The translations under genes were made by a program, and so were the position numbers. 64,000 bases of DNA. It comes from Hyphomicrobiales bacterium. Its GTDB lineage: Bacteria > Pseudomonadota > Alphaproteobacteria > Rhizobiales > Rhizobiaceae. Below are positions 23,897-26,209 of the stretch, in pieces. The stretch is taken from NCBI GenBank assembly GCA_900468805.1, contig UEIF01000004.1:19490-83489 (forward strand), read 5' to 3'. Below the pieces are notes generated by a model. The model made no database searches and had not been told where the DNA came from. It saw only the letters and a list, made by a program, of their open reading frames with translations. The stretch's first letter is position 1. Each line of letters opens with the position of its first letter.

Positions 23897-24985
23897 TCAT
23901 GCGGCTTCCGGCAATGGTCCGACATAGACCGAACGCGGACGGATGAGGCGGCCTTCCAGCGCCTGCTCACGGGCATGGGCGATCCAGCCGACAGTGCGAC
24001 CGATCGCGAAAACGCCGGTAAAGGCGTCGCGTGGGAAGCCAAGGCTTTCCAACAGCAGAGCGGTATAGAATTCCACATTTACATCCAGCGGCCGGTCCGG
24101 CTTGCGCTCCCTGAGAACCGCAAGTGCTGCTTGCTCCACGGCTTCGGCAAGAGCGATACGCCCTGCATTGACCTGGCCTGCGGCAACGATCGGCTTCAGC
24201 GCATTTTTCAGGGCATCGGCCCGCGGGTCGCGTACCCGATAGACGCGGTGGCCGAAACCCATCAGCCGCTCACCGCGATCGAGCGCTGAACGCAGCCAGG
24301 AGCCGGCATTGGCCTCGCTGCCGATACCGTCCAGCATATCAAGCACCGGTCCCGGCGCGCCGCCATGCAGAGGTCCCTTAAGCGCACTGATGGCCGCCAG
24401 CACCGACGAGGTGAGGCCGGCGCGGGTGGAGGCGATGATGCGCGACGCGAAGGTCGAGGCATTCAGGCCGTGATCCGAAATCGTCACGAGATAGGTGTCG
24501 AGGGCGGCGGTCTGCTCGGCACTCGGCGCGGCACCTGTGAGCATGCGCAGGATATCGGCGGACTGCGAGAGGCCTGCATTCGGCTTCACCGGCTTTTCGC
24601 CGCGTTGCAGTCGCAGGACCGCCGGCAGGAAGACAGCGGGTGCGGCAAGAAGGCGAAGCGCGGTATCGATTTCCTCGCCATCGGGCAGACGAGCGACGAG
24701 CGCGCGCATGGCATCAACCGGCGGCAGCGCCAGCAGGCGGGAATCGGCGGCCTTGACTTCGGCGAATACCTCCGTTCGTGCCTTACCGAGCCGGCGGCGC
24801 AATTCGCCAGCATCGAGATGCGGTTCGATCAGGCCGTCCAGCAGCAGAGCCGCAACGTCCTCATAGGTGCTGCGTCCCGCCAGATGATCCAGCGACACGC
24901 CGCGGATAATCAGTCGTCCGGCTTCACCGTCGACATCCGAGAGCTGGGTTTCAGCGGCAATGACATCTTCCAAACCGTTTTTCAT
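23897..24985 (-). CDS. Citrate synthase/methylcitrate synthase family enzyme
   Basis: This 362-residue cytoplasmic enzyme condenses an acyl-CoA with oxaloacetate. Two catalytic His are clear: GPLHGGAPG and FGHRVYRVRDPR. The residue equivalent to the catalytic Asp (normally in NVDF) is Glu in DVNVEFYTALL. The C terminus ends with GWIAHAREQ and RPRSVYVG. The length suits the short type (about 360-370), not the gltA type of about 430. The ATG at 24985 follows AAGGAG. It is divergent from a second citrate synthase homologue with an N-terminal DNA-binding domain. Whether it makes citrate or methylcitrate cannot be decided. Confidence 0.85.
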   Translation of the reverse strand: MKNGLEDVIAAETQLSDVDGEAGRLIIRGVSLDHLAGRSTYEDVAALLLDGLIEPHLDAGELRRRLGKARTEVFAEVKAADSRLLALPPVDAMRALVARLPDGEEIDTALRLLAAPAVFLPAVLRLQRGEKPVKPNAGLSQSADILRMLTGAAPSAEQTAALDTYLVTISDHGLNASTFASRIIASTRAGLTSSVLAAISALKGPLHGGAPGPVLDMLDGIGSEANAGSWLRSALDRGERLMGFGHRVYRVRDPRADALKNALKPIVAAGQVNAGRIALAEAVEQAALAVLRERKPDRPLDVNVEFYTALLLESLGFPRDAFTGVFAIGRTVGWIAHAREQALEGRLIRPRSVYVGPLPEAA

Positions 24986-25028
24986 GGGTCTTTCTCCTTT
25001 ACCGGATGAAAGATCCGCCCTAGTTTAG

Positions 25029-25058
25029 TTGACGTCAATCTTGATGTAATTGATCAAT
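25029..25058. promoter_or_regulatory. Candidate paired operator between the citrate synthase genes
   Basis: Two perfect 10 bp palindromes, TTGACGTCAA (25029-25038) and ATTGATCAAT (25049-25058), have centres exactly 20 bp apart, about two helical turns. Both carry TTGA and TCAA half-sites. They lie in the 84 bp divergent region, upstream of the HTH-citrate synthase ATG at 25070. Confidence 0.55.
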
Positions 25059-25069
25059 ATGAGGCTGAC

Positions 25070-26209
25070 ATGACCTGGTTGACGGCTGAGGAAGCACTGG
25101 CCGAACTCGGCACCAAGCCGCAGACGCTCTATGCCAATGTCAGCCGCGGACGGATCCACTCCAAGGCAGATCCGTCTGATCCACGCCGCAGCCTCTATCA
25201 GGAAAGCGACGTCAAGCGGCTTGCCGAGCGGCATACGGGCCGGCGCAAGAGCGAGACGGTTGCCGCCGAAGCGATCCGCTGGGGCGATCCGGTGCTGACA
25301 TCCTCGATCTCGACCATCGCCGCCGGACGATTGCTTTATCGGGGGCAGGATGCGGCGGAGCTTTCAGCTCATGCGACGCTGGAGGATACGGCGCTGCTTC
25401 TCTGGAATGCGGAGAGTTTCGCTTGCGTACCGGCATCGGCCTTGGAGCCGGCATCTCCCTCCATCCGGGCGGCACTTCTGGCGCTGGCTGGACGGGTGAG
25501 CACCGATCTGCCGTCCCTCGGGCGCGCACGCCCGGCCTTGCAGATGGAAGCATGTAGCGTGCTGTCCACCGTTGCCGATGCGCTGGCGCCGGGACCGGCG
25601 GACCATCCCCTACATGACCGTCTCTCCGCATGCTGGGGCAGGCCGGAAGCGGCCGAATGCCTGCGGCGGGCGCTTGTCGTGCTGGCTGATCATGAGCTCA
25701 ACGCCTCCACCTTCGCGGTCCGCGTCACTGTTTCGACGGGGGCAGCACTTTCTGCTGCCGTGCTTTCGGGCCTCGCGACGCTGACAGGACCGCTGCACGG
25801 TTCGGCATGGCGGAGCGTCGATGCACTCGCCGAGGCTGCATCCACCTTCGGGGCAGAACAGGCGATCCGCGGCCTGTTGTTGCGGGGAAACAGGTTAGTG
25901 GCCTTCGGACATCCACTTTACCCCGACGGCGATGTGCGAGCGAGCGCGCTGCTGTCATCCTTCGAAGCGCCGCCGGTTTTTCGCGATGTTCGGCAAGCCG
26001 GCGAGGAAATAGTGGGCGAGAAGGTGAACGTCGATTTCGCGCTTGCCGCCATGACAGCAGCCTTCGATCTGCCCGAGGAGGCACCGATCATCATCTTTGC
26101 GCTGGCGCGCACGGCCGGCTGGCTGGCGCATGCGATGGAGCAGATCGAAAGCGGCCATCTGATCCGCCCGCGTGCCCGCTATGTCGGGCCTTCGCCAGCC
26201 GAGGCTTGA
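25070..26209 (+). CDS. Citrate synthase homologue with N-terminal MerR/excisionase-type HTH
   Basis: This 379-residue protein has an N-terminal DNA-binding domain (about 1-55: LTAEEALAELGTKPQTLYAN, then a wing ending in DVKRLAERH) fused to a citrate synthase domain. The synthase part keeps the two catalytic His (GPLHGSAW, AFGHPLYPDGD) and the Asp in VNVDF, but its surroundings are diverged from active enzymes. Family members of this form occur in rhizobia and Burkholderia. It may be an acyl-CoA or oxaloacetate-responsive regulator, an enzyme, or both. It is divergent from the plain paralogue. The ATG at 25070 follows TGAGG and opens directly with the HTH. Confidence 0.82.
   Translation: MTWLTAEEALAELGTKPQTLYANVSRGRIHSKADPSDPRRSLYQESDVKRLAERHTGRRKSETVAAEAIRWGDPVLTSSISTIAAGRLLYRGQDAAELSAHATLEDTALLLWNAESFACVPASALEPASPSIRAALLALAGRVSTDLPSLGRARPALQMEACSVLSTVADALAPGPADHPLHDRLSACWGRPEAAECLRRALVVLADHELNASTFAVRVTVSTGAALSAAVLSGLATLTGPLHGSAWRSVDALAEAASTFGAEQAIRGLLLRGNRLVAFGHPLYPDGDVRASALLSSFEAPPVFRDVRQAGEEIVGEKVNVDFALAAMTAAFDLPEEAPIIIFALARTAGWLAHAMEQIESGHLIRPRARYVGPSPAEA

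Follow-up and report, generated by a model that had tools for sequence, protein, structure and literature searches.

An HTH-citrate synthase that is probably a gene switch, and the conserved site that accompanies it

The divergent gene pair and the fusion protein

The window examined here, a 64,000-nucleotide stretch of contig UEIF01000004.1 from a bacterium of the Rhizobiaceae, carries a gene for a citrate synthase fused to a helix-turn-helix (HTH) domain and, divergent from it, a gene for a plain citrate synthase (Table 1). Both open reading frames (ORFs) lie where the original prediction had placed them, and the two perfect palindromes that it had reported in the intervening gap (TTGACGTCAA and ATTGATCAAT) are present, separated by 20 bp when measured between their centres (25033.5 and 25053.5). 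The same contig carries a further citrate synthase gene some 150 kb away (C46:194002), which is the genome's best match, at 466 bits.

Table 1. Features of the divergent gene pair and its intergenic gap, in window coordinates
Feature	Position	Strand	Description
Plain citrate synthase gene, PRK12350 group	23897..24985	-	362 aa; 472 bits, cut-off 332; proposed regulated neighbour
Gap between the divergent genes	24986-25069		84 bp
AAGGAGA, probable ribosome-binding site for the plain citrate synthase	24993..24999	-	sequence reading
Palindrome TTGACGTCAA	25029..25038		clade-specific leftward extension of the conserved site
Conserved site TCAATCTTGATGTAATTGATCAAT, proposed operator	25035..25058	+	exact pattern in 122/122 divergent pairs
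Half-sites of TCAATCTTGATGTAATTGATCAAT	25035-25038, 25041-25044, 25054-25057		TCAA, TTGA, TCAA
Inverted repeat in TCAATCTTGATGTAATTGATCAAT	25041-25045 / 25053-25057		TTGAT / ATCAA, 7-bp spacer
Palindrome ATTGATCAAT	25049..25058		right half-site and part of the variable spacer
HTH-citrate synthase fusion gene	25070..26209	+	379 aa; MerR-like winged HTH at about residues 1-56, citrate synthase fold at about 71-366

Of 199 genomes in the order, 33 encode a full-length HTH-citrate synthase; at E<=1e-60, the plain enzyme is found in 31, all of which are among the 33, and the plain gene adjoins the HTH gene, as judged by coordinates. Across the phylum, a match at E<=1e-35 was found in 50 of 398 genomes.

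In two Rhizobium strains, the leader of the plain citrate synthase contains an IS110-family element, identified by transposase matches (L075:4457-6000 and the same gap of L098). The two insertions are apparently at the same position and leave the site before the HTH gene intact; they may separate the plain citrate synthase from its promoter. A third locus (L102:2380-5916, minus strand) has a plain citrate synthase match limited to residues 1-289 in a frame that continues to 1178 aa and matches no other Pfam family, probably the result of a frameshift or sequencing error.

The fusion of an HTH with a citrate synthase domain, also part of the original prediction, is confirmed by a match to Citrate_synt (PF00285; 177.5 bits, 5e-52) in the window protein and by an HTH that is firm at the family level. 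In the window protein, HTH_17 is the only HTH family matched (E 3.3e-4) and is sub-threshold alone, at 21.3 bits versus a Pfam cut-off of 27; among 26 relatives, HTH_17 is found at E<=0.01 in all 26, MerR_1 in 20, and MerR in 19. A search of solved structures with the single HTH sequence gave no match, and the HTH family profile gave three, including SoxR, at E values (0.35-0.65) that make them unusable alone. The AlphaFold2 monomer (pLDDT 80.6, pTM 0.74) has a winged HTH and a citrate synthase fold, with a helix at residues 45-67 in which confidence is below 50 from residue 57. Model residues 73-366 align to the citrate-bound citrate synthase 2 of M. bovis (6wgy; Z 28.4, rmsd 3.3 over 291 residues). 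A tree of 83 rows, computed by a quick method, places the HTH proteins in a single clade (support 100) that is separate from the plain enzymes (96).

The active-site pocket of the fold is conserved. Among 140 proteins whose genes have the conserved site described below, H208, H243, R290, D322, and R366 are kept in all 140, and H281 and R347 in 139; from their correspondence to the pig enzyme, we take these seven positions to be the catalytic His/His/Asp and the oxaloacetate-binding His/Arg residues.

The conserved site, its distribution, and the genes it faces

Comparison with relatives defines a conserved unit of 24 bp, TCAAT(C/A)TTGAT-N7-ATCAAY, which in the window is TCAATCTTGATGTAATTGATCAAT. 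The palindrome TTGACGTCAA occurs in 79 of the 79 Rhizobiaceae gaps with both genes and ATTGATCAAT in 57, in a set made up of the best 80 of 191 loci from a named-genome scan, mostly Rhizobium (the 80th is cut at a contig edge). Outside Rhizobium, both palindromes decay; TCAAT(C/A)TTGAT, the 7-bp spacer, and ATCAAY persist. The 69 proteins kept after thinning to less than about 80% identity provided 63 non-redundant sites; TTGACGTCAA is present in 20 of these, all on one tree branch that includes the window, and ATTGATCAAT, which requires a particular variable spacer, in 14. The palindromes had been proposed as the binding unit, to be compared across genomes carrying the pair; these counts lead us to reject them as a conserved operator unit, which fails outside the window's branch, and the revised 24-bp site passes the same comparison.

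Spacing is fixed in the 63 sites. The half-site positions carry 1.8-2.0 bits each, a value that is in part by construction because the half-sites defined the search. Positions T5, T11, A14, A19, and T26 were free to vary in that search, yet carry 1.2-1.8 bits.

Loci were selected by similarity to the window protein, and the counts given here describe that sample. It includes 147 distinct upstream regions, loci with identical upstream DNA having been omitted, and 122 of these have a divergent plain enzyme. The exact site is found in all 122, in a single orientation and 26-78 bp before the alignment-derived start of the HTH gene; when these upstream regions were shuffled by mononucleotide, 2,940 shuffles produced no exact match and one with a single mismatch, for a pattern of 12 fixed bases. 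The other 25 regions comprise 16 with the exact site (including L085 and L112, which are merely contig-edge cases), two with one mismatch, and seven with no site directly upstream. Also omitted at this stage were L026 and L180, which represent one gene (G087) with no N-terminal alignment; it has the exact site and was later restored as one locus. Loci from plasmid records have the site with at most one mismatch in 15 of 16 cases; five of the 16 were already in the 147, and the 11 added have no upstream stretch in common with the 147. Overall, 152 of 159 loci have the site directly upstream (at most one mismatch), two have it at the head of an operon, and in five none was found.

Thirty-one loci have no adjoining plain citrate synthase, a count from which alone L085 and L112 were excluded; the site is directly upstream in 24 of these, at an operon head in two, and not found in five. 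The site tracks the HTH protein rather than the enzyme gene, because it is kept in 26 of these 31 loci, and it is conserved in loci down to 37% protein identity. The operon-head loci are L143 (Burkholderia cenocepacia) and its relative L133/L177, both among the seven regions with no directly upstream site. In each, the HTH gene is last in the operon, and the interval between the operon and a divergent 2-hydroxyacid dehydrogenase-type gene holds the site twice, as inverted copies separated by 170 bp; 0.01-0.03 matches would be expected in these intergenic regions, versus the two found. Both operon-head proteins retain all seven pocket residues.

The five proteins without a site share one tree branch, together with one site-bearing row and with modest support (81). 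L132 lacks only H281; L187 lacks H243, H281, and D322; and L188, L193, and L194 additionally lack H208. In these five proteins, site and pocket are lost together.

Four of these HTH-citrate synthases (L187, L188, L193, and L194) belong to one family (f55), with the site and three to four pocket residues gone; this branch has perhaps switched to another ligand and operator. A search of six genomes of the site-less branch, with one mismatch allowed, yielded two exact matches far from the HTH gene, one each in G301 (inside a 348-aa ORF) and G328 (overlapping one ORF and possibly intergenic to two others).

The 7.6-Mb genome of the window contains one exact site, with 19 further sites at one mismatch versus 4 in a reversed control. 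The exact pattern, with a final Y, occurs 86 times in the 199 order genomes; 33 of these sites adjoin the HTH gene, 3 lie elsewhere in HTH-bearing genomes, and 50 are in other genomes. The site is thus beside the HTH gene in 33 of 33 HTH-bearing genomes; the 50 other matches are spread over 40 of the 166 genomes without the gene, and the reversed pattern gives 8 over all 199. HTH-bearing genomes have no excess of further sites, so the predicted regulator looks local. A wider regulon was considered and is unsupported, given the single exact site in the window's genome.

The genes faced by the HTH gene differ among loci, and the family extends well beyond a citrate synthase pair. The HTH gene is divergent from prpB (411 bits) and prpC (PrpC, 717 bits) in L186 and from prpB (414 bits) in L185; in L191 it faces a PEP-mutase/isocitrate-lyase-type gene followed by a PrpC-like gene (the latter judged by its N-terminus only), and prpF is found further along L184 (746 bits). 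A family III CoA-transferase is faced in L178, L181, L183, L180, and L141 (scanned) and in L192 and L189 (by similarity). Other neighbours are a 2-hydroxyacid dehydrogenase (L175, L142, and L217), an MFS carrier followed by a 2-hydroxyacid dehydrogenase (L221 and L222), DUF2332 (L216 and L219), and a methyltransferase that fits no theme (L182). Outside the named records, gene calls were mechanical, and neighbour identities there therefore rest on ORFs and family matches.

Genome G499 encodes two HTH-citrate synthases whose putative targets differ, and both have an exact site of their own; one (L192) faces a CoA-transferase-like gene, and the other (L177) ends an operon divergent from a 2-hydroxyacid dehydrogenase-type gene.

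Proposed regulation and alternatives

We propose, with a probability of roughly 0.78, that the HTH-citrate synthase is a MerR-like one-component regulator that has the intact citrate synthase pocket as its sensor and acts on its own gene and one adjacent target; a metabolic enzyme has probably been made into a gene switch here. The winged HTH would bind TCAATCTTGATGTAATTGATCAAT; a dimer sitting on the 17-bp inverted repeat TTGAT-N7-ATCAA is the likeliest arrangement, and the left TCAAT may provide an extra contact or be part of the neighbour's promoter. In the window, the regulator would activate or repress both the HTH gene itself and the divergent gene for the plain citrate synthase. Citrate synthase closes on oxaloacetate. 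The citrate synthase domain, with its kept oxaloacetate/citrate pocket, would be the sensor, and its closure on an oxo-acid or citrate-type ligand could move the two HTH heads of the dimer. Candidate ligands are, in order of preference, an acid of the citrate or 2-methylcitrate type, oxaloacetate, and acyl-CoA.

The autoregulatory site suggested earlier is supported in part: an intergenic site is kept with the HTH gene far beyond Rhizobium and moves with it to new neighbours, the behaviour expected of an autoregulatory operator, and the pocket residues are conserved. What does not stand is the choice of palindromes.

It is possible, though unlikely, that the fusion is a trigger enzyme, a working (methyl)citrate synthase or lyase that also binds DNA and whose turnover sets regulation; the complete pocket, kept at each of its seven positions in 139-140 of 140 proteins, fits a working enzyme as well, and the HTH proteins have a GHP signature in common with the PrpC of L186. 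Against this, R290 and D322 are joined by a segment of 32-39 residues, versus 46-50 in 12 plain relatives, indicating a reduced small domain. The Arg found four residues after H281 in the plain enzyme is Pro in 129 of the 140, an argument concerning the CoA site that is weakened because the PrpC of L186 also lacks this Arg. Another reading makes the fusion a subunit, regulatory or structural, of a heteromeric enzyme formed with the plain citrate synthase, and assigns the DNA site to another regulator; it would account for the fact that none of the 199 order genomes has the plain enzyme without the HTH protein. We regard it as highly improbable: the HTH protein and the site occur together in 26 of the 31 loci where the plain enzyme is absent, and a regulator other than the HTH protein should have additional sites, whereas the window's genome has a single exact one.

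The conserved block might instead be a promoter, with TTGA/TCAA half-sites as -35 boxes of the divergent genes. A promoter-like sequence toward the dehydrogenase operon of Comamonas (L142), TTGACC-N18-TAGGAT, does begin in the first half-site, and this overlap would fit repression of the neighbour; the point is weak because 0.3 such matches are expected by chance. No sigma-70-like promoter was found in the window's gap by a scan with 16-18 bp spacers, and a hand reading of TTGACG there as back-to-back -35 boxes is a guess. A plain promoter would not be expected to be tied to one protein family or to show a fixed spacing of three half-sites, and we give this reading very little credence; an overlap of operator and promoter is possible and would be compatible with the one-component regulator. 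That the palindromes arose by chance in a short AT-rich gap is a negligible prospect: short palindromes occur often, and ATTGATCAAT differs between relatives, but the exact site in every one of the 122 pairs, its absence from the shuffles, and its conservation down to 37% protein identity already refute this.

The predicted regulator resembles the MerR superfamily (HTH_17/MerR_1) in its N-terminal MerR-like winged HTH and in the dyad site in the gene's own divergent promoter region; it differs in having a whole citrate synthase fold as its effector part. MerR proteins dimerize via an antiparallel coiled coil after the HTH, and their operators, though not those of all members, occupy the space between a -35 and a -10 box set 19-20 bp apart. 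In its 17-bp length and 7-bp spacer, the dyad is reminiscent of GlnR/TnrA sites. With citrate synthase and 2-methylcitrate synthase (PF00285), the protein shares the fold and the catalytic and oxaloacetate-binding residues, and is distinguished by the fused HTH, the shorter small-domain segment, its own putative operator, and a separate tree clade. MocR/PdxR regulators combine a GntR-type winged HTH with an aminotransferase fold and offer a possible analogy, in that the fold of a metabolic enzyme has become the sensor part of a one-component regulator; in the window protein, only HTH_17 and Citrate_synt were matched, so that both the HTH type (HTH_17/MerR) and the enzyme fold are different. 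PrpR, a sigma-54 activator of prp genes, senses 2-methylcitrate. In L185 and L186, the HTH gene has the position expected of such a regulator, divergent from prpB (and prpC), but the AAA sigma-54 interaction domain of PrpR is absent from the window protein, which has only HTH_17 and Citrate_synt.

More broadly, and somewhat more tentatively, we favor the view that these proteins form a one-component regulator family in the alpha-, beta-, and gammaproteobacteria (classes taken from plasmid records), in which the sensor would be a complete citrate synthase active site. The operator would travel with members rewired to local organic-acid targets (a second citrate synthase, prpB/prpC, CoA-transferases, and 2-hydroxyacid dehydrogenases). 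The pocket that in the enzyme produces a tricarboxylate would here sense that compound or its oxo-acid precursor as ligand, and pocket decay would be accompanied by operator loss. If the protein is a regulator, a central-metabolism pocket has been converted to a transcription sensor, and metabolic models that count HTH-citrate synthases as enzymes are wrong. The fixed operator, the wiring to one target, and the change of target from clade to clade make ligand and rewiring directly testable.

Suvorova and colleagues are said to have treated the malonate and propionate regulators of proteobacteria by comparative genomics in 2012, and that work may already name the HTH-citrate synthase family for the prp branch, lowering the novelty of the proposal. 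Searches of open-licence PMC papers found no title or abstract describing an HTH-citrate synthase regulator; SCO5831 is tabulated as a citrate synthase-like protein, with no regulator role, in PMC7324645. The annotated plasmid records examined name the HTH-citrate synthase "citrate synthase" or "citrate synthase family protein."

Two plasmid-borne proteins, from Caballeronia (L140; betaproteobacteria) and Ewingella (L141; gammaproteobacteria), are closely related to the rhizobial protein, with identities of 56% and 52%, respectively. Both loci have the TTGACGTCAA extension and no adjoining plain enzyme; the presence of rhizobial-like proteins together with TTGACGTCAA on beta- and gammaproteobacterial plasmids suggests that they were acquired by horizontal transfer.
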